From positions 1-36,279 of the forward strand of contig NZ_VJWX01000013.1 in NCBI RefSeq assembly GCF_007713715.1: a stretch of DNA of 36,279 bases. Direction: 5' to 3'. Source of the DNA: Amycolatopsis rhizosphaerae. Its GTDB lineage: Bacteria; Actinomycetota; Actinomycetes; Mycobacteriales; Pseudonocardiaceae. Positions within the stretch are counted from its first letter, which is position 1, and every line of letters begins with the position of its first letter. The notes beneath the pieces were generated by a model. It did not search any database. It had not been told where the DNA came from and saw nothing but the letters and a program-made list of their open reading frames with translations. The translations under genes and the position numbers were made by a program. Below, piece by piece: positions 310 to 19,004 of the stretch.

Positions 310-1880
310 CCACGCCGGCAACCGGAGACCTGCACCTGCCTGCCCCGCTCATGCCCGGTGACCTCGATCCGGCTCGGTCCCGGCCCGCCGCGGACGTGGT
401 CAACCGGATGACCACACGGACGTTGTTCGGGTACCGGGCCGAGCCCGACCAGCGGGACTGGCGGGCGGTGGAGCCGGTCGGAGATCTCGCCATGGCCGTA
501 CCGTCGACCTACAACGCGGGTCTCGGCGCGAGCCTGCGGTCCTACGTGGTCCACCTCCGTCCGGGAGTCCGGTGGGACACCGAGCCGCCACGTGGGGTGA
601 CCGCCCACGACGTCGTCCGTGGATTCGCCCGAGCGTGCAGCCCCACCGCGCGCCCCGCCGGGATCGAGTTCCTGCTGTCGGGTGTCCGGGGGATGCGCGG
701 ATACGCGGATCGCTATGCCGGCGCCGTCGCAGGCCATGAACGCGACGTGGCGCGGCACCGAGCCTTTCGCGCAACGAACGCGATTCCGGGCGTATTCGCC
801 CTTGACGACGAGAGCCTGGTGATCGAGTTCGAGCGCCCCGCCCTGGACGCCGTCGACATCCTCGCCCTGCCGTGCCTCGCGCCGGCTCCCGTCGAGTACG
901 ACGCCATCGTGCCCGGCGACGACGACTTCGTGCGGTACGCGCGCTCGACCGGGCCGTACCGGATCGCCGGACTGGATCCGGACGGCGGGGTCCTGCTGGA
1001 GCCGAACCCGGTCTGGGACCCCGCCATCGATCCGCTGCGCGAGCGTGCCTTCGGCGGGGTGACCCTCCGGCCCGGTGCCCCGGCGCCGGACGTGGCACCG
1101 GATACCGAGGTGCCCGAGGTACTGCACGCCTGCCTGCTGCCCAACGCCGGCCCCGGCCGTCCGCTCGCCGACCCGGCGCTTCTCCGGCTCGTCGCCTCGG
1201 CCGTCGCCCCCGAACTCGTGGCCGCGGCGGCCGAGGCACACCTGCCCGGCGTCCGGGCCGCCACCCGTGTGGTGCCCCCCGGTAACAGCGGGAACCCGGG
1301 TGACGGCCCGGATCGGGAACGCCTGGACCCCGACCCGCCGAGCGGACCGGCCGACGGCACGACACTCGTGCTCGTCCGCCCGGACACCACCTTTGCCTCC
1401 GTTGTGGCGGACGCCGTGGCGGGATGCCTCGAGCGCGCGGGAATTCGGGTCACGGTCCGGGCGATCGGGGCGGCCGCGCATGCCGAGTTGCTGTACGGCG
1501 ACAGTGATGGCGACGGCGAGCATGACCTGCTCTTGACCGGGTGGGCCGCCCGGTGGCGCCATCACAACTACCGTGCCTACCTGCAGCCTCTGCTCACCCG
1601 GCGGACCGGACGCGTCGATGGCACCGTCTTCGACGTCCTGATCGACGAGGCGCTCGACGCGGACTCCGATCCGCGGGCCGCCAAGGCGGCATGGGCGAGG
1701 GTGGAGGAGGCGGCGATGACCCGCGCGGCGGTGATACCGCTTCTGCACGGGCCGCCGCTGGCCGCGCGGAGGGTGCCGGGAATGGGCCAGGTGACACCGA
1801 TGTACTCACTGGGGATGGCCGCTGACCCGGTCGCGCTGCGCCCCGAGGGATCACCCGCGGCCGATCGCCTCCCCGTGTGA
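306..1880 (+). CDS. ABC solute-binding protein family 5 homologue, no signal peptide
   Basis: This 524-residue protein belongs to the oligopeptide-binding (SBP_bac_5, DppA/OppA) family, as shown by blocks such as LRPGVRWDTEPP near residue 85 and YRAYLQPLL near residue 420. The GTG start overlaps the upstream stop as GTGA. The N-terminus is Pro- and Asp-rich with no hydrophobic core and no lipobox, so export is not expected. It is a paralogue of the minus-strand gene at 1920-3644: both share the WDT-PP, VRGM and AEYDA/VEYDA-VPG blocks. It is about 50 residues shorter, mainly in the middle ligand-binding part. No permease or ATPase of the peptide-importer type lies in the window. A cytoplasmic ligand-binding or sequestering role is possible but is inference. 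Confidence 0.75.
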   Translation: MTTPATGDLHLPAPLMPGDLDPARSRPAADVVNRMTTRTLFGYRAEPDQRDWRAVEPVGDLAMAVPSTYNAGLGASLRSYVVHLRPGVRWDTEPPRGVTAHDVVRGFARACSPTARPAGIEFLLSGVRGMRGYADRYAGAVAGHERDVARHRAFRATNAIPGVFALDDESLVIEFERPALDAVDILALPCLAPAPVEYDAIVPGDDDFVRYARSTGPYRIAGLDPDGGVLLEPNPVWDPAIDPLRERAFGGVTLRPGAPAPDVAPDTEVPEVLHACLLPNAGPGRPLADPALLRLVASAVAPELVAAAAEAHLPGVRAATRVVPPGNSGNPGDGPDRERLDPDPPSGPADGTTLVLVRPDTTFASVVADAVAGCLERAGIRVTVRAIGAAAHAELLYGDSDGDGEHDLLLTGWAARWRHHNYRAYLQPLLTRRTGRVDGTVFDVLIDEALDADSDPRAAKAAWARVEEAAMTRAAVIPLLHGPPLAARRVPGMGQVTPMYSLGMAADPVALRPEGSPAADRLPV

Positions 1881-1901
1881 TCCGTGCACGGGCTGGTTCC
1901 T

Positions 1902-1914
1902 CCGGGGTCCCCGG
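1902..1914. terminator. Weak hairpin between convergent genes
   Basis: In the 39-bp gap between the two convergent solute-binding-protein genes there is a 5-bp CCGGG/CCCGG stem with a 3-nt loop. There is no T run. It might be a bidirectional terminator, but the signal is weak. Confidence 0.2.
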
Positions 1915-1919
1915 CTGCG

Positions 1920-3644
1920 TCAGTGGGCCAGCCAGACATTGGCGGCGTCGTACCAGCGGTCGATGTGCGGCATCGGGATCGCGTTGCGTACCCGAGGGCT
2001 CGTGACGTGCAGGATCGTCGGCTCGCAGACCAGCAGGGGCACCACGGCCGCGGCGTCGCACACGGCCCGGTCCACGGCATGCCACAACTCCGCCGACCGA
2101 TCAGGGTCGGGCTCCGAAAGCGCTTCGGCGATCATCGCGTCGACGGCGGGATCGCGGTAACCGCCGTAGTTGCAGCTGCCGGCCCCGGACGGGGACTCGA
2201 ACAGCGGCTGAACGCAGGTCCGCCCATTGTTGCCGAACCAGTCCGGCGTCCAAGCGGCCGCCGTGACGTCCCAGTCACCGGCGAGGGAACGCTCGGGGTC
2301 CTGCAGAATCCGGTAGTACTCGTCGGCGTGCTCGATCCGGACCAGTTCGATGTCGACGCCCGCCGCGCGGAGGTCGTCGGAGTACCTGTGCGCGATGTCG
2401 CCGTGCGGAGTCTCCATGCGGTACAGAACACGCAGCCGCATCCCCTCGCAGCCGGCGGCGTTCAGCAGCGCCCTGGCCAGTTCCGGATTCCCGCCGTCGG
2501 TGGTACCGGACGGCGGTGGCCGATACCCGACATTGCCGGGCGGGATGACGCCGTGCGCGGTACGGGTGACGGTGCCCAGGTCCATGCGATCCATCACTTC
2601 GACCAGCGCGGCCTTGTCCACGGCGACGCCAAGAGCCCGCCGGACGGCCGGGTCCCGCAGTTCTCGCCGCGGCCCGCGCACGTTGAACACGAGATACGGG
2701 TTGAGAGCGAAGCCGACGTGCCGGTCGGCGTCCGGGGACAGGCGGTCGTGGCTGATGACCGGTGCCCCCCACGACAGGTCTGCCCGGCCGCTCGCCACCT
2801 CGGCCCGGACGACGTCGTCGTCGACTCGGGCCATCCGAACGTCGATACCGTCGACCCAGGCCGCCCGCAGGGGATCGGACGCCGGGTTCCAAGCGGGGTT
2901 GCGCCGCATCGACAGCTGCTCGCCGGGCCGGTAGCGGGTCAGCCGGTAGGGGCCGCAGGATCGTACGACGTCCGCGAAACCCGGGCCGCCGGGTACCACG
3001 GCGTCGTACTCGGCGGGAGCCGGTGAGGCGTAGAGCGTGGCGAGGATGTTGACGATGTCGTTCGCCGGCCGCACCAGCTCGATCTCCAGCGCCCGCTCGG
3101 CCGGCACCCGCAGCCCGCTGATCTCGTGGGTGTTCTGGTAGCGGGCCGCGGTCTCCGGGCCGGCACCGTCCCGGTCGATCGCGGTCCGGTAGCCGTCGGC
3201 GAACGCGGCCATCCCCCGCACCGTGCTGGTGAAGTAGCCGAGCGAGCCGGTTCCCGTCACGGGGCAGGCCAGGCGCTTCAGACCACGAACCACGTCGGCG
3301 GCGGTGACCTCGCGCGGTGGGTCGGTGTCCCAGTACACGCCGGGCCGGAGCTCGATGCGGTGCACCAGGCCTCCCGGATCGATCCCGCCGTTGTCCCGTG
3401 CCGGCACCGCCATCGCCAGGTCCGGCACGGGAGTCAGCGCGTCCTCGCCGGCGGTGGTCGGGTAGGTGAACAGCTGCCGGGTGAACAGCCTCAGGATCTG
3501 GTGCGAGAACGCGTAGCTGGCGCACGCCGGGTCGATGTGGTCCATGCCGCCCGGCCCGAAGTACCGGAGGATTCCTCCCCGGCGGGGTCGCCCCTCACCG
3601 GGAAGGATCAGCTGCGGCACGGTCGCCGGGGTGGTGTGGATCAT
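1920..3644 (-). CDS. ABC solute-binding protein family 5 homologue, no signal peptide
   Basis: The product is 574 residues of the SBP_bac_5 family. It opens directly with the mature-protein block GGILRYFGPGGMDHIDPA around residues 19-36, where normal members have a lipoprotein signal first. It keeps the conserved WDTDPP, CGPYRL, RNPAWNPASDP, FNVR and GVIPPGNVGY blocks, so it looks like a complete ligand-binding fold. ATG at 3644 was chosen because it overlaps the stop of the upstream decarboxylase gene as ATGA; a longer in-frame extension would run into that gene. It is the last gene of the UDP-sugar operon, which suggests a role tied to the sugar or the finished metabolite rather than peptide import. 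No partner permease is visible. Confidence 0.8.
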   Translation of the reverse strand: MIHTTPATVPQLILPGEGRPRRGGILRYFGPGGMDHIDPACASYAFSHQILRLFTRQLFTYPTTAGEDALTPVPDLAMAVPARDNGGIDPGGLVHRIELRPGVYWDTDPPREVTAADVVRGLKRLACPVTGTGSLGYFTSTVRGMAAFADGYRTAIDRDGAGPETAARYQNTHEISGLRVPAERALEIELVRPANDIVNILATLYASPAPAEYDAVVPGGPGFADVVRSCGPYRLTRYRPGEQLSMRRNPAWNPASDPLRAAWVDGIDVRMARVDDDVVRAEVASGRADLSWGAPVISHDRLSPDADRHVGFALNPYLVFNVRGPRRELRDPAVRRALGVAVDKAALVEVMDRMDLGTVTRTAHGVIPPGNVGYRPPPSGTTDGGNPELARALLNAAGCEGMRLRVLYRMETPHGDIAHRYSDDLRAAGVDIELVRIEHADEYYRILQDPERSLAGDWDVTAAAWTPDWFGNNGRTCVQPLFESPSGAGSCNYGGYRDPAVDAMIAEALSEPDPDRSAELWHAVDRAVCDAAAVVPLLVCEPTILHVTSPRVRNAIPMPHIDRWYDAANVWLAH

Positions 3645-4679: not shown

Positions 4680-6032
4680 TCACCGGCCGATCCCTCGGTA
4701 CCGCAGGTCGTGGTCGTGCAGTGAGCTGATCTCGTCCCGCGTGAAGTACCGGCGGCCGTCGAAGACGAGGCACCCGGCCCGGGTGGCGGCGCGCAGGCCA
4801 GCCGCGGTGAGCCTGCGGTACTCCCGATGTCCGGCAAGGAAGGCGACGGCGTCGGCCCCGGCCAGCGCCGCGTCGATCGAGGGTTCCGGTTCCTGGCCGA
4901 ACAGGTCGCGGACCCGTTCCGGCTCTGCCAGCCCGTCGTGCAGCCGGACGGTGCAGCCGGCGCGGCGCAGGCACTCGACGAAGGGGGCGACAGGAGTCCG
5001 GCGCAGGTCGCCGGTGTCGCTTTTGAACGCGAGCCCGAGCACCGCGACGGTGGCGCCGGCCGGGTCCGTCCCGAGTTTGCGCAGCTCGTCGGTCAGGCTC
5101 CGGGCCGCGTGGCCCGGCATGGCGTCGTTCACGGCCCGCCCGGTCACGATGGTGCGCAACTCGACACCGCGGTCGGCAGCGGCCCTCACGGCCATGACGG
5201 GGTCCTTGGGCAGGCACGAGCCGCCGACGCCGACGCTGGGAAGCAGCACGTTCATCCGGCCCGCCCCTTTCGGGATGGTGTTGGCCGCGGTCACCACCTC
5301 CATCACGTCGATCCCGAACGCGTCGCAGAACAGCGCCAGCTCGTTCGCCATCGCGATGTTGTGGTCGATCCACCAGTTGCTCGCGAGCTTGACCGCCTCG
5401 GCGACGTCGGCGTCGGCGACCGGGTGGACGGGGACCCCGAGGTGGCGCCGCCAGAACGCGCTTGCCGCCTCGGCCGATGCCACATCGATCCCGCCGACGA
5501 CGACGGCGAGTTCCCGCAACTGTTCGATCGCCTGTCCCTCGGCCAGCCGCTCCGGGCAGTGCGCGAGGCCGACGTCGACGCCCGGCCGCAACCCGTGCCC
5601 CGCCAGCAAGGGCGCGACCACGGTGCGGGTCGTACCGGGCGGCACCGTGCACTTGACGACGACGAGCTGCCCGGGGCGCAGCCGGGGGGCGAGGTCACGG
5701 CACGCCGCCTCCAGCTGGCTCGAATCGAGTCGGCCGTCGGCATCGATCGGGGTGCCCGGCGTGAGCAGGACGACGTCACAGTCGGCGGCCGACGACAGGT
5801 CCGGGGCCACGGTCAGCCGCCCGCTCGCGAGACCCTCGCGCAGCAGTTCGTCCAGACCGGGTTCGGCGATCGCGCACCTGCCGGCGCGCAGCCTTTCGAC
5901 GTGAGCGCGATCGACGTCGGCCGCGACGACCCTGAGGCCGCGCTGTGCGAGCAACACGCCAAGGCACAGCCCGACATAGCCCGCTCCGACGACGAGCACG
6001 GACGGGTCGCGATCGTGCGGCAGGAAGCGCAT
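4680..6032 (-). CDS. UDP-glucose 6-dehydrogenase family protein
   Basis: The 450-residue protein is an NAD-dependent nucleotide-sugar dehydrogenase. It has the Rossmann motif GAGYVG at 16-21, the PGTP motif near 92-95, a conserved lysine in EAVKLASN (K215) and the catalytic cysteine in GVGGSCLPKD (C273). The family oxidises C6 of UDP-glucose (or UDP-HexNAc) twice, giving the uronate. The neighbouring decarboxylase makes UDP-glucose to UDP-glucuronate the likely reaction, the first step to a UDP-pentose. Length and motifs are normal for the family, and the window gives no sign of truncation. A UDP-N-acetylmannosamine dehydrogenase role cannot be excluded on sequence alone. Confidence 0.88.
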   Translation of the reverse strand: MRFLPHDRDPSVLVVGAGYVGLCLGVLLAQRGLRVVAADVDRAHVERLRAGRCAIAEPGLDELLREGLASGRLTVAPDLSSAADCDVVLLTPGTPIDADGRLDSSQLEAACRDLAPRLRPGQLVVVKCTVPPGTTRTVVAPLLAGHGLRPGVDVGLAHCPERLAEGQAIEQLRELAVVVGGIDVASAEAASAFWRRHLGVPVHPVADADVAEAVKLASNWWIDHNIAMANELALFCDAFGIDVMEVVTAANTIPKGAGRMNVLLPSVGVGGSCLPKDPVMAVRAAADRGVELRTIVTGRAVNDAMPGHAARSLTDELRKLGTDPAGATVAVLGLAFKSDTGDLRRTPVAPFVECLRRAGCTVRLHDGLAEPERVRDLFGQEPEPSIDAALAGADAVAFLAGHREYRRLTAAGLRAATRAGCLVFDGRRYFTRDEISSLHDHDLRYRGIGR

Positions 6033-7421: not shown

Positions 7422-8420
7422 ATGACCGCGGCGCAGGCCACGCACGTACCACTGGGTCGCGCCGGGCTCCGCGTCAGCAGACTGTGTCTCGGCACGGTGA
7501 ACATCGGGGGGCGGGTCGACGGACGCGAGGCGCTGGCCTTGCTCGACGGGGCGCTCGACGCGGGAATCGACTTCGTCGACACCGCCGACATCTACGGCTG
7601 GCGGATCCATCAGGGACACACCGAAGAACTGCTCGGCGCCTGGCTCGCCCGGCCGGGCGTGCGAGACCGGGTCGTGCTGGCGACGAAGGTCGGCAACCGG
7701 TTCGGCGCCGGCCCGAACGACGAGGGGCTCTCCGCCCGCCACATCGTCCGGGCGTGCGAGGCCTCGCTGCGCCGGCTGCGCACCGATCACGTTGATCTGT
7801 ACCAGATGCACCGGCCGGACCCGGCGACGAGCTGGGAGGAGATCTGGGAGGCGATGTGCCTGCTCGTGGCCCAGGGAAAGGTCCGTTACGTCGGCTCCTC
7901 CAACTTCGCCGGATGGCAACTGGCCTCCGCGCAGGAAGCGGCACGCTCACGGCACGCGTTCGGGCTCGCGTCGGAGCAGTGCCTCTACAACCCGCTCGTC
8001 CGGCACGCCGAGCTGGAGATCATCCCGGCGGCACGGCATTACGGGATCGGTGTGCTCGTGTGGTCACCCCTGTACGGCGGGCTGCTCTCCGGGGTGCTGG
8101 CCAAACTGGCCGACGGGACGGCCGTGAAGTCGGCCCAGGGTCGCGCGGCGATCGCACTCGATGGGCACCGCGCCGTCATCGAGCGATTCGAGCAGCTCTG
8201 CGCCGAGCGCGGTCGCCCGCCCGCCGAGGTCGGGATGGCGTGGACGCTCGCCCGGCCCGGCGTGACGGCGATCGTGATCGGGCCGCGAAATCCCGCTCAC
8301 CTCAAGGGGGCGCTTGCCGCACTGCGGGAACCGCTGGACCCGGATCTCGGCGAGGCCCTCGACGAGTTGTTCCCGCCGATCGGTCAGGGCGGACCGGGTC
8401 CGGGCGCCTGGCTCACCTGA
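7422..8420 (+). CDS. Aldo/keto reductase, probable sugar ketoreductase
   Basis: The 332-residue protein is an NADPH-dependent aldo/keto reductase with the full catalytic tetrad: D53 and Y58 in DTADIYG, K89 in LATKVG and H130 in LYQMHRPD. Late motifs for cofactor binding (AIVIGPRNP near 285) are also present. In secondary-metabolite clusters such enzymes often act as NDP-deoxysugar 3-ketoreductases or 2,3-enoyl reductases in 2-deoxysugar formation, the step after a 2,3-dehydratase. No 2,3-dehydratase is in this window, so the pairing is inference. The gene faces the glycosyltransferase at 8474-9616 and diverges from the aminotransferase. Confidence 0.85.
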   Translation: MTAAQATHVPLGRAGLRVSRLCLGTVNIGGRVDGREALALLDGALDAGIDFVDTADIYGWRIHQGHTEELLGAWLARPGVRDRVVLATKVGNRFGAGPNDEGLSARHIVRACEASLRRLRTDHVDLYQMHRPDPATSWEEIWEAMCLLVAQGKVRYVGSSNFAGWQLASAQEAARSRHAFGLASEQCLYNPLVRHAELEIIPAARHYGIGVLVWSPLYGGLLSGVLAKLADGTAVKSAQGRAAIALDGHRAVIERFEQLCAERGRPPAEVGMAWTLARPGVTAIVIGPRNPAHLKGALAALREPLDPDLGEALDELFPPIGQGGPGPGAWLT

Positions 8421-8473: not shown

Positions 8474-9616
8474 TCAGAGCTCGGCGATGATCCGCCGCGC
8501 CGTCTCGGCGGGCGAGGGCAGCGAATGCATTTCGTCGCGCACCACCGTCATCCGCTGGACGAGCCGGTCGTCCTTGATCAGCTCGGTCAGCAGCTCGGGG
8601 CTGACCTCGTCGGCCGAGCCGACCAGGCCGATTCCGAGTTCGCGGACGGCGGCACGTCCGGAGTGCTGGAACATGTCCCTGGAATCGGGCGCGAGGAGCT
8701 GCGGCGTGCAGGCCTCGATCGCCGTCATGATCATGCCGCCACTGCCGTGGTGCACCACGGCAGCGCACTGGCGGAGCAGCCGGTGGAGCGGCGTCCACCC
8801 GACCGCGTGGACGTTCGGGGGCAGCGGCCGGAGCGGGCCGATGTCGAGGTCACCGAGGGCCAGCACGAAATCGGCGTCCACCCGGGCGGCCGCCGCGACG
8901 ATGGACTCGACTGCCCCGAGCCCGAAGGCCTGCAGCTCGATGGTGCCCATCGACACCGCGACCCGGGGCCGGTCCCGGTTGGGGGCGGTGGGCCAGCGGT
9001 CGCCGTGGACCTCGCCTCCGCCGTAGGGCACCCACCGCATGAACCAGCCCTCCGGCGAACGGTCGAGGATCATGCTCGGCGGGAAGGACTCGATGATCAC
9101 GTCCGGTTTCGGCAGCGGCCTCGGGAGGTCGTACCGGTCGAAGAAGTCGCCGAGGAACCCGGCGACCGCATCGTGCATTCCCGCGGTCGCGAATGCCCCG
9201 TGGTTCCGCTGCACGGCGGGCACGCCGGCCCTGGCGGACGCGAAAAGGCCGGCCGTCGCGCCCTGCTCGTAGACCACCAGGTCGGGTCCGAAATCGTCGG
9301 TGAGCGCGATCAGGCCGTCGATCAGCGGACGGTTCACGGCGGCGATCTGGACTCCCCACTCGGCGAGGGCGACAGCCGGCCGCGTCGCTACGGTCGCGAG
9401 GAAGTCGGGATCGTCCTTGGCCACCTGCTCGAAGGCCTCGACGGAACTGAAGTGGGGCGCGACGTCCACGACCTCCAGGCCGGACCCCGCCGCCCGCTCC
9501 GCGTGCTCGGCGATGGCGATGACCACGTCGTGACCGTTCGCCCGGAACGCCCACGCGAGCGGAATCAGCGGGAAAAGATGTCCGAGGCCGGGCGACGAGA
9601 CGAACAGAACATTCAC
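8474..9616 (-). CDS. MGT-family (GT1) glycosyltransferase
   Basis: The 380-residue protein is a GT-B fold glycosyltransferase of the macrolide/enediyne type. It has the N-terminal catalytic-base motif GLGHLFP (H13) and the C-terminal donor-phosphate motif HHGSGG at 289-294, both intact. GTG at 9616 was chosen because it starts directly at the first beta strand and has AGGAG seven bases upstream; any upstream extension is not GT-like. Such enzymes transfer a sugar from an NDP-sugar to the aglycone or to a growing oligosaccharide. Calicheamicin uses four related enzymes, CalG1-CalG4. The order of transfer and acceptor cannot be told from sequence. It is transcribed divergently from the FGE-like operon. 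Confidence 0.88.
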   Translation of the reverse strand: MNVLFVSSPGLGHLFPLIPLAWAFRANGHDVVIAIAEHAERAAGSGLEVVDVAPHFSSVEAFEQVAKDDPDFLATVATRPAVALAEWGVQIAAVNRPLIDGLIALTDDFGPDLVVYEQGATAGLFASARAGVPAVQRNHGAFATAGMHDAVAGFLGDFFDRYDLPRPLPKPDVIIESFPPSMILDRSPEGWFMRWVPYGGGEVHGDRWPTAPNRDRPRVAVSMGTIELQAFGLGAVESIVAAAARVDADFVLALGDLDIGPLRPLPPNVHAVGWTPLHRLLRQCAAVVHHGSGGMIMTAIEACTPQLLAPDSRDMFQHSGRAAVRELGIGLVGSADEVSPELLTELIKDDRLVQRMTVVRDEMHSLPSPAETARRIIAEL

Positions 9617-9764
9617 CGGATTGCTCCTGACAGGGGAAAGCCGGCGTGGAGCCCGGCCCGTCGCCCCGGACGACAACAGATCGAAAACTATACAAGACAA
9701 TAGTGTTGACCCAGTGAGCCTGTCCATACCTTGCCACTACCCGGCAGTCACTATAGACTTATTA
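9617..9764. promoter_or_regulatory. Divergent promoter region with TATA-like boxes
   Basis: This 148-bp AT-rich gap separates the glycosyltransferase (minus) and the FGE-like operon (plus). On the minus strand TATAGT is preceded by GTCTTG (9688-9698 read backwards), and the same GTCTTRTATAG string recurs upstream of the SRPBCC gene at 22582-22592. On the plus strand TATAGA at 9752-9757 ends seven bases before the ATG at 9765, which fits a leaderless transcript; TTGCCA at 9731 is a possible -35 with a short 15-bp spacer. Confidence 0.45.
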
Positions 9765-10700
9765 ATGATTGCAACCCGACGGGATGGCTCTATGGCAATC
9801 TTCGGAGAAGTGAAGCGCGGCAGCGTTGAGGCCGACGGATCCTTGGTGATCCACGGCGCAGCCTTCCAGCTCGGATCGCCGGAGTGGGTTATCGAGTGGC
9901 TCGAGAAGCAGGAGCAGGCGTTGCCGACGCCGTGGTTCCGGGACGAGACCCCGCAAAAGCTCGTGGAGGTCGCGCCGTTCGCGATGGACCGTCATCCGGT
10001 CACCGTCGGCCAGTACACGACTTTCGTCGAGGCCACCGGCTACCGGACGGTTGCCGAGCGCCGCGGCTGGGGTCTCGTCTACGGCGCGGACTACTGGCAG
10101 CAGACCCCCGGCGCGTCCTGGCGCCGTCCGGCCGGCGGTGCGGTCGACTACCACCCGCCGGACGACCACCCCGTCGTCCACGTCGCGGTCGAGGACGCCG
10201 ACGCATTCGCCGCGTGGGCAGGCAAGCGGCTGCCCACCGAAGCGGAATGGGAACTGGCTGCGCGCGGTCCCGGGTACCGGCTGTGGCCGTGGGGCGACGA
10301 ATGGTCGCGCGAACGGGCGAACACCGTGGAGCTGTGGATGGGCGAAGCCACCCGCGGCGCCGCCGAATGGCGAGCGTGGTGGAGGGCGCGTCAGCGCGAC
10401 CGGGGCCCGGTCCCGCTGACTACACCCGTCGGGGCCCTGAGCCCGCACGGTGACAGCCCGTACGGGGTGGCGGACCTGGCCGGGAACGTTTACGAGTGGA
10501 CGGCATCGCCGAGCCGGCTCTATGGCCCGTCGCCCGACTGCGACGATTCACTCCTGAACGTGATGGGCCGCTACCGCGTCATCCGCGGCGGATCGTGGAT
10601 GAATCTGCGCTTCCAGACCCGCACGAGCGAGCGGCTGCACGGTGACCCCACCGGATGGGCCTGCTTCGCCACCGGATTCCGCTGTGTACAAGACCTCTGA
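9765..10700 (+). CDS. FGE/SUMF1-fold protein lacking the copper-binding cysteine pair
   Basis: The 311-residue protein has a formylglycine-generating-enzyme (FGE-sulfatase, SUMF1/EgtB C-type) domain from about residue 66 to the end: MDRHPVTVGQYTTF at 74-87, LPTEAEWELAAR at 156-167, WPWGDEW at 174-180, GVADLAGNVYEWT at 234-246, RVIRGGSW at 271-278 and GFRC at 304-307. True FGE has two cysteines after GGSW that bind copper; here that stretch reads MNLRFQTRTSER and has none, so protein formylglycine formation is unlikely. EgtB/OvoA sulfoxide synthases and PvdO are other relatives, but the DinB-like N-domain of EgtB is absent. The start is uncertain: ATG 9765 fits a leaderless mRNA, ATG 9792 (302 residues) is the alternative. 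It is followed nine bases later by the Gly-Gly carrier gene, which suggests a redox or sulfur step. Confidence 0.82.
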   Translation: MIATRRDGSMAIFGEVKRGSVEADGSLVIHGAAFQLGSPEWVIEWLEKQEQALPTPWFRDETPQKLVEVAPFAMDRHPVTVGQYTTFVEATGYRTVAERRGWGLVYGADYWQQTPGASWRRPAGGAVDYHPPDDHPVVHVAVEDADAFAAWAGKRLPTEAEWELAARGPGYRLWPWGDEWSRERANTVELWMGEATRGAAEWRAWWRARQRDRGPVPLTTPVGALSPHGDSPYGVADLAGNVYEWTASPSRLYGPSPDCDDSLLNVMGRYRVIRGGSWMNLRFQTRTSERLHGDPTGWACFATGFRCVQDL

Positions 10701-10709
10701 GGATTTCCG

Positions 10710-10985
10710 ATGCCGCATCTCATCGTCCCCGCCAGCTGGCACAACGCGACGTCGGGCAAGGCCCGCCTGGAGCTGCCGGCGGTCAACCTGCGCGAACTGC
10801 TGGATGCGTTCGTGCGCTCGCACCCGAAAGCCGGCTACCGCCTCTACTCCCCCGCCGGCGCACTGCTGCACTACCACATCTTCGTCGTCGACGGGGTGCA
10901 GGTGCCTCGCACGACGCCCCCCGACGACGTGAACCTCACCCACAGCAGCCGCGTCGAGATCATTCCGCCGCTGGTGGGGGGCTAG
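10710..10985 (+). CDS. ThiS/MoaD-like sulfur-carrier candidate ending in Gly-Gly
   Basis: The product has 91 residues. It shows the beta-grasp pattern of ThiS/MoaD/ubiquitin-like proteins: a hydrophobic strand, LELPAVNLRELLDAF (20-34) as the central helix entry, the strand IFVVDGVQV (57-65), DDVNLTHSSRVEIIPPL (72-88) and a C-terminal Gly90-Gly91. In sulfur carriers that tail is adenylated and converted to a thiocarboxylate, which donates sulfide, for example to thiamine, molybdopterin or, in BE-7585A, to a thiosugar. No E1-like (ThiF/MoeB) partner is in the window, so a housekeeping activator would be needed. AGGA precedes the ATG. It lies between the FGE-like and glycosyltransferase genes with gaps of 9 and 7 bases. 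Confidence 0.78.
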   Translation: MPHLIVPASWHNATSGKARLELPAVNLRELLDAFVRSHPKAGYRLYSPAGALLHYHIFVVDGVQVPRTTPPDDVNLTHSSRVEIIPPLVGG

Positions 10986-10992
10986 GCCGCCG

Positions 10993-12198
10993 ATGAGTCC
11001 ACGCCACATTCTCGTAGTCAACGTGCAGGGACACGGCCACGTCTACCCGTCGCTCGGCGTGGTCGGCGAACTCGCCCGGCGCGGGCACCGCATCTCGTAC
11101 CTGACGGGACCGGCCTTCGCCGAGGAAGTCACCGCGGCAGGCGCCACGGTCGTGCCGTACAAGTCGGAGTTCGACGAATTCCACGTGCCCGACGTCGTCG
11201 GTCGGGAGGACGCCGAGACACAGCTGCACCTGGTGTACGTCCGGGAGAACAGGGCCATCCTCCGTGCGGCCGAGGAAGCGCTGCGCGACGACCCGCCCGA
11301 CCTCGTGGCCTATGACGTGATGCCGTTCCTGGCGGGACGCCTGCTGGCCAAGCACTGGAACCGGCCGGCCGTTCGCTTCAACGGCGGCTTCGCCGAAAAC
11401 GAGCACTACTCGATGTTCGAGGCGCTGTGGGCCAGCCACGGTCACCGTCACCCGGCCGACGTCGAGGTCGTGCACACGGTGCTGGTCGACCTGCTGGCCG
11501 AATACGGCATCGATACGCCGGTGAAGCAGTTCTGGCGCGAGATCGAGGATCTCAACATCATCCATCTGCCGAAGTCCTATCAAATCGCCCCCGAGACGTT
11601 CGACGAGCGGTTCGTTTTCGCCGGGCCGAACTTCGGCGGCCGGACGAAGGACGCGCACTGGCAGCCGCGCCGCCCCGGCGCGCCGGTCCTGCTCGTCTCG
11701 CTGGGGACGCTGTTCAACGAGCACCCGGACTTCTTCAGGACGTGCGCGAAGGCCTTCGCGGACACCCCGTGGGAGGTGGTCATGGCGATCGGCCGCTACC
11801 TCGACCCGGAGACGCTGGGACCGTTGCCGCCCAACGTCGAGGCCAAGGCGTGGGTACCGTTCCACGCTGTTCTCGAACACGCGACGGTGTGCCTGATCCA
11901 GGGCACGACCGGCGCCACGATGGAAGCCATGGACATGGGCGTGCCCGTGGTCGTCATGCCGCACTTCGCGACCGAGGCGGTCCCCTTCGCCCAGCGCACC
12001 GTCGAACTGGGCCTCGGCTACGAACTGCCGTCCGACCGGATCGACCCGTCCGGCGTCCGGGCGATCGTGGAGCGACTTGCGGCCGACACCGCGGTGAAGC
12101 AACGGGTGCTGCGCATGCAGCGCGACGTCAGGGAGTCGGGCGGGTCGGACAGGGGCGCCGACGAGATCGAGGCGTACATGACGCGCTGCGGGCTCTGA
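10993..12198 (+). CDS. MGT-family (GT1) glycosyltransferase with altered donor motif
   Basis: The 401-residue GT-B protein keeps the catalytic-base motif GHGHVYP (H16) at the N-terminus. The usual HGG block that binds the donor phosphates is changed: residues 303-307 read QGTTG, so the phosphate-contacting His is Gln. The rest of the donor site (EAMDMGVPVVVMPHF) looks normal. It is clearly paralogous to the glycosyltransferase at 17744-18958 (shared SLGT-FN-HP-FFRTC block near 236-251), more than to the one at 8474-9616. It sits third in the FGE-like/carrier/radical SAM operon, so it may handle a sugar made or modified there. Reduced or altered activity is possible; the acceptor is unknown. 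Confidence 0.85.
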   Translation: MSPRHILVVNVQGHGHVYPSLGVVGELARRGHRISYLTGPAFAEEVTAAGATVVPYKSEFDEFHVPDVVGREDAETQLHLVYVRENRAILRAAEEALRDDPPDLVAYDVMPFLAGRLLAKHWNRPAVRFNGGFAENEHYSMFEALWASHGHRHPADVEVVHTVLVDLLAEYGIDTPVKQFWREIEDLNIIHLPKSYQIAPETFDERFVFAGPNFGGRTKDAHWQPRRPGAPVLLVSLGTLFNEHPDFFRTCAKAFADTPWEVVMAIGRYLDPETLGPLPPNVEAKAWVPFHAVLEHATVCLIQGTTGATMEAMDMGVPVVVMPHFATEAVPFAQRTVELGLGYELPSDRIDPSGVRAIVERLAADTAVKQRVLRMQRDVRESGGSDRGADEIEAYMTRCGL

Positions 12199-12260
12199 CA
12201 CCGCACCGCGAGACACCGGCCGGCGAATCGCCTTCCATCGAGGAAAAGAGGGCTTGGACA

Positions 12261-13763
12261 ATGACGCTTCGAGACGTCAGCGTGCTGCTGCTGTACCCAC
12301 CGAACCAGAACCTGCCCGGAACCGTGTGCAAGCCGAACGGCTCGCTCGCCTATCCGCATTTGGGTGGGGCGCTGCGGCACCACGGGGTGCCCGTGCGTGT
12401 CTTCGACGCCTGCGTCGGCGACGGTCCCGACGATCTCGACGACATTTTCGCCAACCCCTCGATGTTGTCGAGCGGCCTGCTGCGGACCGGCGTCGGCGAC
12501 GAGCGGATTCTCGAGGTCGTGGCCGAGCACGACATCATCGGCATCACGTCGATCTTCACCGACCAGGAGTCGATGGTTCTGCACTGTGCCCGGCTGATCA
12601 AGGCGGCCTATCCGGGCAAGATCCTCGTCTCCGGCGGGGTGAACGCGCGCTCACGGCTGCCGAAGTTGTTCGAGGCCGGCTTCGACGTGGTGTGCCTGTC
12701 CGAGGCCGAGCACACCCTCGTCGAAATCGTCGAAGCCGCACGGCGCTCGGCCCGGCCGAGCTTCTCCCACATCCACGGCGTCGCGTTCCACGACGCCGAC
12801 CGGATCCGACTCAACCCGGCCCGCTCGCAGGACATCGTGCAGGACCTCGACACGCTGCCCATGCCGGCGTGGGACCTGCTGCCCAATCAGCGCTACTGGA
12901 CCCTCGCGCGGCCGCATTCGGGGCTGTTCGAGCCCGGTGCCGAACTGCGCTACGGCACGATGATGACCTCGCTCGGCTGCCCGTTCCACTGCGCGTACTG
13001 TCACATCGCCGGTGAGGAGGAGGGCAGCCTCAGCGGCCCCATCGGGAGTTTCCGGGTGAAGTCCGACGAGCGGGTGCTGGCCGAGATCGAAACGCTGAAG
13101 GGCCTCGGTGTGACGGACGTGTTCATCGAGGACGATTCGCTGCTCGGGCAGAAGAAACGCGGCCTGCGACTGCTGGAGAAGATCCAGGGCGCGGGCGTGA
13201 CCGTCTGCGATCTCAACGGCATCAACATCATCCACCTGCTCAAGCGCTGGAAGCCCGACCACGAAGTGCTCGAGGCGTTGGCCATGGCGGGCTTCACGCA
13301 GCTCAACATGCCGTTCGAGACGGGCAATCTGCGGATCATGCGCAAGTACGCGAGCAACAAGCTCAACGTGGAGAAGGCCGATCTCCGCGGGCTGATCACC
13401 GCGATGAAGGAGTACGGCTTCAAGCTCTACGGCAACTACATGATGGGGTACCCGGACGAAACGCTGGAGGAGATCGAGACCACCATCGCCCTCGCCCGCG
13501 AGCACGTCTCCCACGGCCTGGACGCGGCGAACTTCTTCCTCGTCGTGCCGATGCCCGGCACACCGCTGTTCGACATGGCGATCGCCGGCGGCCACCTCAG
13601 CCCCGATTTCGATCCCGACAGGATGAACATCTACCACGCCACCATGACCAACACGGTGGTTCCCGGGAAGGTACTGGAAGAGCTGCGTGCCCGCGCGTGG
13701 GACGAGGTCAACTCCGCGAAGTGGAAGACCGCCAAGAAGGCCTGGGCGGCCACGGTGGTCTGA
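12261..13763 (+). CDS. B12-binding-type radical SAM enzyme
   Basis: The 500-residue protein has an N-terminal cobalamin-binding-like Rossmann region (about 1-160; LLLYPPNQN, VSGGVNARSRLP) and a radical SAM domain with the cluster motif C240-PFH-C244-AY-C247. The canonical DxHxxG cobalamin-ligand motif is not evident, as in many class B radical SAM enzymes. Known members methylate unactivated carbons, including sugar carbons, or carry out rearrangements, ring contractions or sulfur insertions. Possible tasks here are C-methylation of a sugar or a C-S step. It is the last gene of the four-gene operon, 62 bp after the glycosyltransferase, with a purine-rich ribosome binding region before the ATG. 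Confidence 0.86.
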   Translation: MTLRDVSVLLLYPPNQNLPGTVCKPNGSLAYPHLGGALRHHGVPVRVFDACVGDGPDDLDDIFANPSMLSSGLLRTGVGDERILEVVAEHDIIGITSIFTDQESMVLHCARLIKAAYPGKILVSGGVNARSRLPKLFEAGFDVVCLSEAEHTLVEIVEAARRSARPSFSHIHGVAFHDADRIRLNPARSQDIVQDLDTLPMPAWDLLPNQRYWTLARPHSGLFEPGAELRYGTMMTSLGCPFHCAYCHIAGEEEGSLSGPIGSFRVKSDERVLAEIETLKGLGVTDVFIEDDSLLGQKKRGLRLLEKIQGAGVTVCDLNGINIIHLLKRWKPDHEVLEALAMAGFTQLNMPFETGNLRIMRKYASNKLNVEKADLRGLITAMKEYGFKLYGNYMMGYPDETLEEIETTIALAREHVSHGLDAANFFLVVPMPGTPLFDMAIAGGHLSPDFDPDRMNIYHATMTNTVVPGKVLEELRARAWDEVNSAKWKTAKKAWAATVV

Positions 13764-14057: not shown

Positions 14058-15101
14058 CTAGCCGAGCGGTATCCCCATCGAACGCGCATACCTCGCGCGT
14101 GCCCTTGAATTCCGCTCCAGCCAGTCCACCAGGGCACGGAATCCCTCGGCCAGGCCCCGGCTCGGCCGCCACCCGAGCCGGCGACGGCTGCGCGCGCAGT
14201 CCGCCACGCACAGCATCGTGTCCCAGGTTCGCGGCGCCATCGTCGACCAGCGTGGTTGCTCGTCGATGGCGAGTTCGCCCCGTGCCAGGTCGACGAGTTC
14301 GGCCAGCGACGTGGGTGTTCCGCTGCCGATGTTGAAGATGCTGCCGTGCTTGAGATGTGTGGCGCGCGCCGCTCGCACGAATGCCTCACAGACGTCGTCG
14401 ACGAACACGAAATCCCGGACGGTCTTCGGGTCGGTGAGTGGGGGCAACCGCCGTCGCAGCCCGAACATCGCGAGGGCCGGCATCAGGCGGTACGGGTCCT
14501 CCCAGGGACCATACGCGGTACTGAGGCGCAGCGTGACGATGTGGGCTCCGCGCTCCATCGACACGGTCCGCGCATACCGCGTCGCCGCGGCCTTGCTGAT
14601 GGCGTAGGAACCGAGCGGCGCGACCGGTTCCGACTCGCGCGCGGGATGGTCCTTGAAACCGTACTCGGCCGTGGAGCCCGCCTGGACGAACGCCTCGAAC
14701 GCACCCGCGCCCGCCAGGTCGACGAGTCCGGCCGTCGCGTCCGTGTTGGTGGCGAAGATCGCGGCGGTGTCCGTCTGCCGGGAGTACGCGCCGTGCGCGG
14801 CGAGGTGGAACAACCAGTCGGCCCGGACCGCGCCGATCGTGGTCCGGACCGCCTCGGCATCGCGCAACTCGAGCCGGTGGAGCGTGATGTCGCCACGGAT
14901 CTCCTCGATCCGCCACGTGTCGGTGCCGGGCCGCACAACAGCGTGCACCGAGTGACCGTCCCGCAGGAGCCACCGGCAAAGGTTCGCACCGACGAAGCCA
15001 CTGGCTCCGGTGACGAGTACGCGCCGTGCCGACGGAGGGAAGCGTTCGAGCGCAGGGACGGCCAAGGGGTCACCGGGCGGGCCGACGGCACCCCTGCTCA
15101 C
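14058..15101 (-). CDS. NAD-dependent sugar epimerase/4-ketoreductase (extended SDR)
   Basis: The 347-residue protein has the cofactor motif TGASGFVG (31-38), AGSTAEYG (141-148) and the catalytic YAISK (Y166, K170). The block HGAYSRQTD resembles CDP-paratose/abequose synthases and other sugar 4-ketoreductases, so reduction or epimerisation of an NDP-keto-sugar is likely. GTG at 15101 was chosen because it overlaps the stop of the transketolase subunit gene as GTGA. The TAG stop lies within the CTAG that flanks the MITE-like element, so the insertion abuts the gene without cutting it. Together with the split transketolase it may form a branched-chain or unusual sugar module. Confidence 0.8.
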   Translation of the reverse strand: MSRGAVGPPGDPLAVPALERFPPSARRVLVTGASGFVGANLCRWLLRDGHSVHAVVRPGTDTWRIEEIRGDITLHRLELRDAEAVRTTIGAVRADWLFHLAAHGAYSRQTDTAAIFATNTDATAGLVDLAGAGAFEAFVQAGSTAEYGFKDHPARESEPVAPLGSYAISKAAATRYARTVSMERGAHIVTLRLSTAYGPWEDPYRLMPALAMFGLRRRLPPLTDPKTVRDFVFVDDVCEAFVRAARATHLKHGSIFNIGSGTPTSLAELVDLARGELAIDEQPRWSTMAPRTWDTMLCVADCARSRRRLGWRPSRGLAEGFRALVDWLERNSRARARYARSMGIPLG

Positions 15102-16024
15102 GGCCGCGCGGATGCCACCAGCGACGTGACGGTACGCGCGATGGCGGTGGCCGACAGGCCGAACTGCTCCTTGAGGAACGCCACGGATCCCGTCGTCCCG
15201 CGTGGCAGATCGTCGAGGCCGCAGCGTCGCAAGCGGGTCGACAGTCCACGCTCCGCGATCACCTCGGCAACGAGCGTGCCCAAACCGCCGTCGACGAAGT
15301 GTGACTCGACGCTGACGGCGAAGGACACGTCGGAGAGGAGGTCGGCGAGGTCGTCGACGGGCGACGGGTTGAAGCTCTCGACGACCGCCACCGTCGCCTC
15401 CACACCCGCCGCGCCCAGTTGCGCGGCCGCGGCCAGCGCGTCGGTGGCGGTCGAGCCGAGCGCGATCAGTGCTATGTCGCTCCCGGTGCGCAGCCTGGTC
15501 AGCCTGCCGAGCTCGAAGTCCGTGGTGAGGCCGGGGACCGGTGCACCACCTTTGGAGAGGCGGTAGTAGATCGGCCGCGGTAGCGCGTACGTCTGCTTGA
15601 ACGCGCCACGCGCGTGGGCGGCGTCGGCCGGGACGACGACGGTCAGCCCCCGTTGCAGGCGCAGGATCCCGACGTCCTCGAGCCCGTAATGGGTCGCGCC
15701 GTTGTTGCCGTACTCGAACCCACCACCGACGCCGACGATCCGCACCGGGAGCTGGTGCAGGACGGGGCCGTTGCGAATGAACTCGTACGGTCGCATCGAC
15801 GCGAACGTCGCGATCGAGTACACGAAGGGGATCATGCCTGCTTCCGCGAGGCCGGTCGCCACGCCCACCATGTTCTGTTCCGCGACACCGATGTTGAAGA
15901 AACGGTCCGGGAACCGCTCGGCGAACGGCTCGAGCATGTTGAAGCCCAGATCGCCGGTGAGCAGGACGACACGGGGATCCTGTTCCGCCAGCTCGGCGAG
16001 CGTTTCGACGAATGCGGCTCTCAT
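15098..16024 (-). CDS. Transketolase-like protein, C-terminal subunit
   Basis: The 308 residues correspond to the pyrimidine-binding and C-terminal domains of transketolase. The catalytic Glu that activates thiamine diphosphate is in NIGVAEQNMVGVATGLA near residues 44-60, and the family block YGLEDVGILR is near 117. It is the partner of the N-terminal subunit encoded just upstream, with an ATGA overlap that favours equal synthesis of both chains. Split transketolases occur in natural-product pathways such as rifamycin (Rif15A/15B). A two-carbon ketol transfer onto or from a sugar is the natural reaction; 1-deoxyxylulose-5-phosphate synthase is unlikely given length and neighbours. Confidence 0.85.
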   Translation of the reverse strand: MRAAFVETLAELAEQDPRVVLLTGDLGFNMLEPFAERFPDRFFNIGVAEQNMVGVATGLAEAGMIPFVYSIATFASMRPYEFIRNGPVLHQLPVRIVGVGGGFEYGNNGATHYGLEDVGILRLQRGLTVVVPADAAHARGAFKQTYALPRPIYYRLSKGGAPVPGLTTDFELGRLTRLRTGSDIALIALGSTATDALAAAAQLGAAGVEATVAVVESFNPSPVDDLADLLSDVSFAVSVESHFVDGGLGTLVAEVIAERGLSTRLRRCGLDDLPRGTTGSVAFLKEQFGLSATAIARTVTSLVASARP

Positions 16025-16944
16025 CGTCCCTCCGAAGGGGTGCCGGGTCCGGTCGCCGCGGTGGTGACCTCGGCGGCCGCGGTGGCGTACTGCTCGTCGG
16101 ACAGCGGCCAGTAGCGCCAGCCGACGCGGTCCTCCATGAACGAGACGCCACTTCCCGCGGTGGTGCGCGCGAGCAGCACTTGAGGGCGCGACGAGGTGCC
16201 GTCGATCGAGTCGAGCGTCGCGCGCAGTGCCGCCACGTCATGGCCGTCGACCTCGTGGACCGACCAGCCGAAGGCCTGCCAGCGTGGTGCGAGGGGCTCG
16301 AGGTCCAGGATCCGGTTGGTCGGCCCGAACGCCTGTTGTCCGTTGACGTCGACGATGGCCACGAGCGAACCGAGACGGTGGTGTGCGGCGAACATCGCCG
16401 CTTCCCACACCGTTCCCTCGTTCAGCTCCGCGTCGCTGAGCAGCACGAACGTGCGCCGGGCCGATCCGGCCAGGCGAGCCGCGAGCGCGGAACCCGCCCC
16501 GTAGGACAACCCATGCCCGAGCGAGCCGGTGGAGAAGTCGATTTCCCCGAGCACGTGCTCGGGATGTGCCCCGAGCGCGGTCCCGTCCGTGCAGTAGCTC
16601 TCGAGCGCCGCCCGATCGATCCGTCCGGTCTCGTACAGCGCCGCGTAGAGCGCAAGCACGGCGTGGCCCTTCGACAGGATGAACCGCTCGCGGTCCGCGC
16701 CCTCACCACGCAGGATCCCTCCGAACAAGACCGCCATGATGTCCGCGATCGAGAGGGCGGAGCCGATGTGGCCGAATCGCGCACGATGCGACTGTTCGAG
16801 AATATGGAGCCGAATCCGATGCCGCATCGAGAGGTGCGCGGGGTCCTGCGCCGTGGTCGGCGGGCTCTGGTACGACGTCACCTTTCGGGGCGGTGGTTCA
16901 TCCGGCGATCCGGTTTGTGGGCGGCGAAACGACGCAGTCGACAT
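16021..16944 (-). CDS. Transketolase-like protein, N-terminal subunit
   Basis: The 307-residue chain is the diphosphate-binding half of transketolase: GHIGSALSIADI near 73-84, SKGHAVLALYA, GSLGHGLSYGAGSALAARL and ELNEGTVWEAAMFAAHH. The usual GDG start of the thiamine-diphosphate/Mg motif reads SDA (LLSDAELNEG); the metal-binding Asp is kept, and the later Asn (VDVNGQQ) is present. ATG at 16944 was chosen; its first 45 residues are Pro/Ser-rich and unlike transketolase, so a later start is possible, but no better ribosome binding site was seen. It is the first gene of the three-gene operon with the C-terminal subunit and the SDR. Confidence 0.83.
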   Translation of the reverse strand: MSTASFRRPQTGSPDEPPPRKVTSYQSPPTTAQDPAHLSMRHRIRLHILEQSHRARFGHIGSALSIADIMAVLFGGILRGEGADRERFILSKGHAVLALYAALYETGRIDRAALESYCTDGTALGAHPEHVLGEIDFSTGSLGHGLSYGAGSALAARLAGSARRTFVLLSDAELNEGTVWEAAMFAAHHRLGSLVAIVDVNGQQAFGPTNRILDLEPLAPRWQAFGWSVHEVDGHDVAALRATLDSIDGTSSRPQVLLARTTAGSGVSFMEDRVGWRYWPLSDEQYATAAAEVTTAATGPGTPSEGR

Positions 16945-17018
16945 TTGAGCTGAATTCTCCGTTCCCGGGAAGCTCGCCGAAATGAAACACGGTCCGTTCC
17001 CGACGCGACCACCCACCG

Positions 17019-17743: not shown

Positions 17744-18958
17744 TCACGTAGCGATTGTCATGTCGGGTCGGTTACTCGCCGAGCGGCCGAGTCGCGCGAG
17801 TACCGCGTCGGCGGCCCGGACGGCGCCGCCTGCGCCACGGATGTGGCGCTGCATGTCCTGAACCCTCGCGAGAGTGTCGGTGTCCCGGGCCAGTTCCTCC
17901 ACGGTGTCGCGCAGCGAAGTCGCATCGAATCGATCGGGCGCGAGAGAGCGTCCCAGCCCCAGTTCCCCGACCCGTCGCGCCATGGGCTCGACCTCGAACG
18001 CGTAGTGCGGAACGGTCACCATCGGCCTACCCCAGTGGAGCGACTGCATAACGGTTCCCATCCCGCCATGCGTGACGCAGAGCTGTGCGTGCTCAAGGAC
18101 GGCGAAGTGGGACAGCCAGCTGTGTGCCTCGACGTTGTCCGGCAGCGTTCCCAGCGCGCCGGGTTCGACGCGGCTGCCCAGTGTCATGACGACATGCCAG
18201 CGGGTGTTCGCGAAGGCCCGCAGACAGGTCCGGAACCACTCCGGATGGTCGTTGAAGCTGGTACCCAACGAGATCAGCAGCACCGGCCGGTCCGCCGGAG
18301 GTGTCCAACGGTCGCCCCGGTCTTCCAGCGCCGGCCCGACGAAGACGAAACGGTCGTCGAAGGTGTCTCCGGCGAACTGGAAGGCCCGTGGGATGAAGAC
18401 CAGGTTGAGGTCCGCGATGCCATACCAGAACTCCTCGAGTTCCGGCCGCATGTCCCGGGCCTGGAGGACGTCCGCCAGTTCCGCACGGAAGCGCTCGAAC
18501 GTGAGCGGGCCGGGAATTCCTGAGGCATCGACCATTTCCTGGTAGTACGAATAGTGGTCGTTGGTCGCGAAGCCGACGCTGAGCCGCACCGCCTCGCGGT
18601 TCCACCGGCGGGCCAACAGCCGCCCGGCGATGAACGGCGCGTCCTCGTAGAGGATCACGTCCGGCGGGGCCGCGTCGAATGCCGCCTCGGCTGCCCGCTG
18701 TATCCGCAGGTTTTCCTTCAGATACAGAAGATGCGGCAGTACGGGATCGCCGGCGCCGAACACCTCGGCCGGGTCCAGGCCCGCGACTGCCGACTCGTAG
18801 GTCAGTACCGACGCCCCGAACGAGGTTGTGGCGTCGGCGAACTCCTTGGTCGTGAGGTGCACGACCCGGTGCCCCCTGCGGGTGAGCTCGCCGACGAGCG
18901 AGAGGGTCGGGTACACATTGCCGGCGTGGGGTCCGGTGAGGAGCAGCGCCGTAATCAT
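17744..18958 (-). CDS. MGT-family (GT1) glycosyltransferase with altered catalytic-base motif
   Basis: The 404-residue GT-B protein has a normal donor motif THGGMG at 296-301 but an unusual N-terminus: where the family has GHxxP with the catalytic His, residues 13-17 read GNVYP. H11 lies close by and might substitute. The fold and length are otherwise typical, and it is a paralogue of the glycosyltransferase at 10993-12198. ATG at 18958 starts at the first strand; TATATATTTT ends a few bases upstream, so the mRNA may be almost leaderless. It precedes an SRPBCC gene in the same operon. Donor and acceptor are unknown. Confidence 0.85.
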   Translation of the reverse strand: MITALLLTGPHAGNVYPTLSLVGELTRRGHRVVHLTTKEFADATTSFGASVLTYESAVAGLDPAEVFGAGDPVLPHLLYLKENLRIQRAAEAAFDAAPPDVILYEDAPFIAGRLLARRWNREAVRLSVGFATNDHYSYYQEMVDASGIPGPLTFERFRAELADVLQARDMRPELEEFWYGIADLNLVFIPRAFQFAGDTFDDRFVFVGPALEDRGDRWTPPADRPVLLISLGTSFNDHPEWFRTCLRAFANTRWHVVMTLGSRVEPGALGTLPDNVEAHSWLSHFAVLEHAQLCVTHGGMGTVMQSLHWGRPMVTVPHYAFEVEPMARRVGELGLGRSLAPDRFDATSLRDTVEELARDTDTLARVQDMQRHIRGAGGAVRAADAVLARLGRSASNRPDMTIAT

Positions 18959-19004
18959 ACTTTCAAAATATATACCAATACGGCAGCGAGTGCCACTCTC
19001 GCGG
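18959..19004 (-). promoter_or_regulatory. Candidate promoter of the glycosyltransferase-SRPBCC operon
   Basis: The bases just upstream of the minus-strand ATG at 18958 contain a TATATATTTT block within a short AT-rich patch in otherwise GC-rich DNA. Its distance of 8 to 10 bases from the ATG suggests a -10 element with a very short or absent 5' leader. No clear -35 was found. Confidence 0.35.

Follow-up and report, generated by a model that had tools for sequence, protein, structure and literature searches.

In the biosynthesis of BE-7585A, one of the closest described systems, BexX reportedly inserts sulfur into a sugar together with CysO/MoaD/ThiS carriers and MoeZ. Calicheamicin holds both a trisulfide and a thiosugar, and the enzymes that mobilise and install this sulfur were described as unknown in 2016 (PMC4851618). 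Here we analyse a stretch of 36,279 nucleotides from Amycolatopsis rhizosphaerae (assembly GCF_007713715.1, contig NZ_VJWX01000013.1, positions 1 to 36,279), hereafter the window, in which a CalU17-like protein with the fold of the formylglycine-generating enzyme (FGE) is encoded next to a predicted sulfur carrier ending in Gly-Gly. We found that this gene pair is conserved across related enediyne loci, and we propose that the two proteins would act together in the insertion of sulfur into a nucleotide-activated sugar.

The CalU17-like protein and its carrier

The pair opens a run of four open reading frames on the + strand (9765-10700, 10710-10985, 10993-12198 and 12261-13763), which we confirmed to be placed and spaced as in the preliminary description of this DNA, with gaps of 9, 7 and 62 bp:

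9792-10700, + strand: CalU17-like FGE-fold protein without the FGE cysteines (PF03781, 194 bits, E=4.6e-57); an upstream start at 9765 is possible
10710-10985, + strand: predicted ThiS/MoaD/CysO-like sulfur carrier of 91 amino acids, ending in VGG (PF02597 family match)
10993-12198, + strand: CalG4-like glycosyltransferase (CalG4 in the PDB at E=5e-190, searched with 10993-12195; EryCIII/UDPGT-type in Pfam)
12261-13763, + strand: B12-binding radical SAM enzyme (PF04055; PF02310 just below its cut-off)

For the FGE-fold protein the start at 9792 is more likely than that at 9765, because the orthologue of Saccharomonospora keeps the Met of 9792 but lacks a start codon at the position of 9765. 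A profile of the family matches CalU17 in the PDB at E=4e-157 (525 bits, versus about 154 for the next family), and the window protein is 55% identical to the printed CalU17 stretch over 287 residues. Judged by its sequence, it is a member of the CalU17 family, for which structures have been solved. The four genes had been put forward as a candidate for an undescribed system; as proteins they are not undescribed, since the FGE-fold protein belongs to this family and the glycosyltransferase is CalG4-like. Pfam matched no second domain beside PF03781, and the PvdO and GldK families also match the protein.

The earlier description of the protein as cysteine-less is right for the FGE site, where neither catalytic position holds Cys. 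In an alignment with 11 family rows, the first catalytic Cys of a canonical FGE (L047) stands opposite Asn280 and the second falls within a loop that is deleted in 11/11 rows; in a second, larger alignment the first stands opposite a gap, and none of the 31 family members has Cys in the six counted columns. Most relatives have a non-equivalent Cys a few residues further on (RYQVRC), where the window protein has Thr. At least 30 of the 31 members keep a set of residues that are rare in distant FGEs, among them Gln51, Trp57, Trp202, Trp205, Trp206, Asp260, Asn280, Arg282, Gln284, Glu289, Asp294 and Trp298, in a comparison that excludes locus L070 from the family side and is blurred on the distant side because many of those sequences are partial. 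The SWMNFRYQ motif also occurs in an FGE fragment of Candidatus Andersenbacteria (L072, 1563-2057), whose 5.4-kb contig, partly reading N, has no carrier.

Taken alone, the window carrier is a marginal match to PF02597 (21.0 bits, cut-off 22.5). Its 14 aligned relatives are all matched by ThiS (PF02597) with E values of 0.01 or lower. The profile of the family matches PDB 4n6e (ThiS/MoaD), which we take to be linked to BexX, and CysO (3dwg), both at about 2.5e-11, as well as other MoaD/SAMP proteins. By this beta-grasp family match we predict that the 91-residue protein is a carrier of the ThiS/MoaD/CysO type; its AlphaFold model has a mean pLDDT of 90, with low confidence at the last residues alone. 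The Gly-Gly tail persists in relatives, being present in 30 of 30 paired carriers. The genome has three further ThiS-family genes and one strong ThiF-type protein, in which ThiF is fused to rhodanese as in MoeZ, besides two weak ThiF matches.

We scanned contigs with the FGE alignment and kept the best 80 of at least 438 relatives. Twenty-five of these are CalU17-like loci (L048-L071 and L100; 48-80% identity), spread over 24 genomes that their record titles all place in the Actinomycetes, and the remaining 55 are more distant FGE loci, with short contigs among the stretches. A carrier recognised by hidden Markov model and GG end within the fetched stretch (up to 20 kb) is present in 23/25 CalU17-like loci, directly adjacent in 22 and one gene away in L064. 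In contrast, 3/55 distant loci have one, none of them adjacent and all several kb off on the other strand (Fisher P about 1e-14, with relatives counted as independent). The dedicated Gly-Gly carrier with an FGE-fold partner, as claimed earlier, is borne out by this conserved pairing. Furthermore, the pairwise distances of FGE and carrier are correlated at r=0.90-0.93, above the values between either of them and UDP-glucose dehydrogenase (UGDH), the enediyne polyketide synthase (PKSE) or UnbU (r=0.61-0.83, with A. oligospora counted twice for UGDH and P. ovalisporus for UnbU).

The two loci without the pair belong to Actinomadura terrae and A. litoris, whose genomes encode a closely matching carrier at another place, some 5 kb from a PKSE match. 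In both genomes (G622, contigs C11/C1, and G638, contigs C32/C4, respectively) FGE, apoprotein and UGDH genes share one contig, and the PKSE match and carrier share another; the enediyne cluster of these species may be split in the genome. The genome of the window itself has a second FGE-carrier pair (G000, contig C155; L038, 6597-7745), accompanied by an S-methyltransferase homologue and UnbV/UnbU-like genes, which possibly marks a second enediyne cluster.

Enediyne clusters and their sugar genes

Relatives of CalG3, CalG4, CalG2, CalE6, CalS8 and CalU16 agree with the earlier assignment of the window to an enediyne cluster, and by its sequence this is a cluster of the calicheamicin/esperamicin type. 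CalE6, CalG, CalS8 and CalU16 relatives are found together with an enediyne synthase, which places it in the 10-membered calicheamicin type, as read from genes alone:

4683-6032: CalS8 relative (PDB sequence search)
7422-8420, + strand: aldo/keto reductase (PF00248), a putative reductase partner
8477-9619: CalG3 relative (best solved relative in the PDB sequence search)
17744-18985, - strand: CalG2-like glycosyltransferase, candidate thiosugar transferase (CalG2 in the PDB at E=1e-129, searched with 17747-18985, start trimmed)
21911-22513: CalU16 relative (PDB sequence search)
23650-24804, - strand: CalE6-like methionine gamma-lyase (CalE6 at E=4e-125, PDB searched with 23653-24804), a candidate for the trisulfide and not for the FGE-carrier pair
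25645-26919, - strand: SufS-like cysteine desulfurase, candidate sulfur source (PF00266; SufS family 455 bits, cut-off 475)
27783-34226: type I polyketide synthase of the enediyne kind (PKSE), so read from its size and company

A PKSE-like match is present in 24/24 genomes with the CalU17-like gene (E up to 1e-30), the weakest, in the L070 genome, having 32% identity and perhaps being an ordinary polyketide synthase (PKS). In 18/25 loci the match shares the contig at a distance of up to 50 kb (exceptions L053, L055, L062, L064, L066, L070 and L100). Among 397 order-wide genomes, 73 have a PKSE match at 1e-60 and nine a CalU17-like FGE (E under 1e-90), all nine within the 73 (P about 1.6e-7, again with relatives counted as independent); for the FGE up to five candidates were scored per genome, the weaker rows G450 and G527 were dropped, and the equal-sized samples for the two genes were taken as the same genomes. 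The CalU17-like gene therefore marks a minority of enediyne-type genomes.

We distinguished two cluster types among these loci; L053, L064, L066 and L070 could not be typed. The 10-membered type comprises the window, L048, L049, L050, L051, L056, L057, L061, L065, L067, L043, L045 and L060, which share CalG-like transferases. Wide regions of this type were scanned for seven (the window, G615, G616, G618, G627, G631 and G633): CalE6-like and SufS-like genes occur in 7/7, a DegT gene in all except G633, and an NDP-hexose 2,3-dehydratase in all except the window, whose contig starts at base 1. The aldo/keto reductase is matched in the assembled regions of G615, G616, G618, G627 and G631, and not of G633. 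A split transketolase pair with an NAD-epimerase lies behind the operon (14061-17016, - strand) and, among 17 scanned regions, is found in the window and Saccharomonospora only; it may build a two-carbon-branched sugar.

The other type comprises M. phaseoli, A. auranticolor, Micromonospora 15K316, P. ovalisporus, W. consettensis, R. arisaemae, Micromonospora NBRC 107566 and A. oligospora C9. Genes for epoxide hydrolase, tyrosine-aminomutase-like enzymes or neocarzinostatin-type apoproteins are found in 7/8 of its regions and none in G635 (the domains of example marker genes were checked), and from these markers we take the type to be that of 9-membered enediynes. CalE6-like and DegT genes are absent from all eight regions as assembled (60-100 kb). 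Matches to UGDH and to UDP-xylose synthase (UXS)-like enzymes are present in 6/8, and the carrier gene is followed by a zinc-type dehydrogenase in 6/8 and then by an RmlA-like gene in 4/8. The order UGDH-UXS-FGE-carrier-dehydrogenase recurs in A. oligospora and A. harenae (L058, L062), and six distinct loci have an RmlA-like gene 2-3 kb downstream. In the 10-membered type, the 2,3-dehydratase directly follows the carrier in four Micromonospora-type loci (L043, L045, L060, L061), whose FGE is 84-92% identical to CalU17. As evidence for a thiosugar by itself this dehydratase was rejected, since it lies on the contig within 25 kb in 12/25 loci only.

In L070, a metagenome-assembled Streptosporangiaceae genome, a sugar-nucleotide short-chain dehydrogenase/reductase, carrier and FGE form a run (1190-3302) adjoining a GT2 gene, with no clear enediyne context; two further neighbours gave no Pfam match. 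We also rejected the idea that a homocysteine S-methyltransferase homologue and orsellinate genes exclude each other (a methyl versus an acyl sulfur cap), because the homologue also occurs in the four Micromonospora-type genomes with CalO-like genes; it instead tracks the 10-membered type.

A proposed sulfur insertion and its alternatives

On balance, and at somewhat better than an even chance, we consider that the FGE-fold protein and the Gly-Gly carrier would form a two-part unit inserting sulfur into an NDP-sugar. We infer the sugar as target from the neighbouring genes, because sugar-nucleotide genes, and not the CalE6-like gene, are common to the 10-membered type, the 9-membered type and L070. 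The SufS-like cysteine desulfurase would release sulfur, and the MoeZ-like E1/rhodanese protein would convert the C-terminal glycine of the carrier to a thiocarboxylate. The CalU17-like protein would then bind the charged carrier and an NDP-4-keto-sugar, with the thiocarboxylate sulfur attacking C4, and hydrolysis would free the carrier. A reductase, which may be the aldo/keto reductase in the window and the zinc-type dehydrogenase in the other cluster type, would yield the 4-thiosugar to be attached by the CalG2-like transferase; CalG2 itself is presumably the thiosugar transferase. More tentatively, and at a little less than an even chance, the CalU17-like proteins may constitute a new family of carrier-dependent sulfurtransferases acting on NDP-4-keto-sugars with a cysteine-less FGE fold and a dedicated thiocarboxylated carrier, and may supply the thiosugar step that is missing from the pathways of calicheamicin and esperamicin.

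Several observations weigh against sugar sulfuration. We know of no product for any of these clusters and of no 9-membered enediyne with a thiosugar. UGDH/UXS matches are missing from 2/8 regions of the 9-membered type, 13/25 loci have no 2,3-dehydratase within 25 kb, and neither M. phaseoli nor L040 has a SufS match close to the pair. The proximity of sugar genes is weak evidence alone, because NDP-sugar genes are common in such clusters. The invariant Lys of a BexX/ThiG-type Schiff base was not found among the 31 family members.

The sulfur could be destined not for a sugar but for the enediyne core, such as its allylic methyl trisulfide trigger, which we consider unlikely. The tie of the CalU17-like gene to enediyne synthase clusters would fit such a role, as would the pair lying within 8 kb of UnbU/UnbV-type core genes in M. 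phaseoli-type clusters and the presence in both cluster types of a SufS-like gene, a kind of sulfur candidate named in PMC4851618. However, the 9-membered-type regions have the pair and no CalE6-like match (0/8, one of them, G635, being without the three markers), and the S-methyltransferase homologue of the 10-membered type is absent from 9/11 of the 9-membered-type genomes searched, the exceptions being G628 and G624, whose match lies on the contig of its 10-membered-type locus. Furthermore, L070 has the pair with merely a weak PKS match on another contig, and 64/73 PKSE genomes are without a CalU17-like match. We give a distinctly low probability to a role remote from sulfur, with the FGE-fold protein as an oxidoreductase or binding protein and the carrier as a protein modifier or in another step: FGE-fold families, PvdO and GldK included, do perform varied chemistry and no catalytic metal site can be assigned in this one, but the one-to-one pairing and the co-varying distances speak against such a role.

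Very improbable, in our view, is an aromatic thioacid, in which carrier sulfur would pass to an orsellinate-type acid and form a thioester bridge to the sugar. In the four Micromonospora-type loci the pair does directly follow CalO-like orsellinate genes, and G635, G634, L058 and L062 have an aromatic iterative PKS at a distance of up to about 5 kb; Saccharomonospora, A. mexicana, Nocardiopsis FR4, Phytohabitans and A. xylanilytica, however, have the pair and no aromatic PKS beyond the enediyne synthase in 80-100 kb. The least credence of all goes to one C-S bond pathway that uses all four genes with radical SAM chemistry. The tight one-strand spacing is in its favour, and in Saccharomonospora (NZ_KI912259.1; G173/G615, L048) the same four genes stand in the same order at 80-88% identity in a collinear cluster, so that the packing is not chance. 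Yet the contiguous order occurs in that one of 25 loci, and the radical SAM gene is found in 4/24 FGE-positive genomes; in the other three it is 7 to 53 kb away from the FGE, and in L044 and L045 the CalG4-like gene lies beside it. On these counts we rejected the view that the four genes form one conserved module. The preliminary description had proposed a thiosugar or C-S bond module and an ordered search of genomes for it: the genes co-occur in some genomes, and a sulfur role is plausible for the FGE-carrier pair, whereas membership of the glycosyltransferase and radical SAM enzyme is not supported.

CalG4 is presumably an aminopentosyl transferase, and the CalG4-like enzyme is probably an aminopentose transferase outside sulfur insertion. 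The radical SAM enzyme, with CxxxCxxC in 5/5 aligned orthologues and weak matches shared with AprD4 and TokK, is probably another tailoring step that would serve, with this transferase, another sugar; because it adjoins CalG4 in some clusters, we would guess that it alkylates the nitrogen substituent of the aminopentose.

If sugar sulfuration by the CalU17-carrier pair is true, unreported thiosugars would be expected in 9-membered enediynes of Micromonospora, Actinoplanes and Actinomadura relatives, perhaps 4-thiopentoses because no DegT aminotransferase match was seen in regions of this type, and perhaps also in a glycan of the Streptosporangiaceae bacterium. Carrier-fed sulfur chemistry would then gain a new fold. 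With one partner of solved structure, this conserved pair of enzyme and carrier makes the question of the calicheamicin sugar sulfur directly testable in vitro, and it flags enediyne clusters whose products may hold unsuspected sulfur.

Comparison with known systems

Among the papers listed from the open-licence literature, none dealt with CalU17 (a name that gave no match there), with a link between FGE and thiosugars or with a carrier encoded in an enediyne cluster, which is no proof of novelty; one listed paper, PMC11857848, contains the terms enediyne and MoaD together. CalU17 of the calicheamicin cluster (PDB 7ML6, 7MSY, 6VQP) is of the same family as the window protein, and we deduce its pairing with a carrier from related loci, the M. 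echinospora cluster not being among the best 80 of at least 438. Canonical FGE shares the Pfam family and fold, whereas the window protein has neither catalytic cysteine. EgtB, OvoA and SenA have the FGE-like domain in common with it and, to our knowledge, use no carrier; the window protein differs in scoring 98.5 bits against an EgtB-type cut-off of 360 and in having no DinB-type domain matched. The 2-thiosugar pathway of BE-7585A, work on which PMC4851618 cites, resembles our proposal in the Gly-Gly carrier of the CysO/4n6e group, the MoeZ-like protein in the genome and the proposed sulfuration of a sugar. It differs in the acceptor enzyme, which in the window has the FGE fold with no ThiG match and no invariant Lys, and in the carrier, which in the window is dedicated and clustered, whereas that of BE-7585A is reportedly borrowed.

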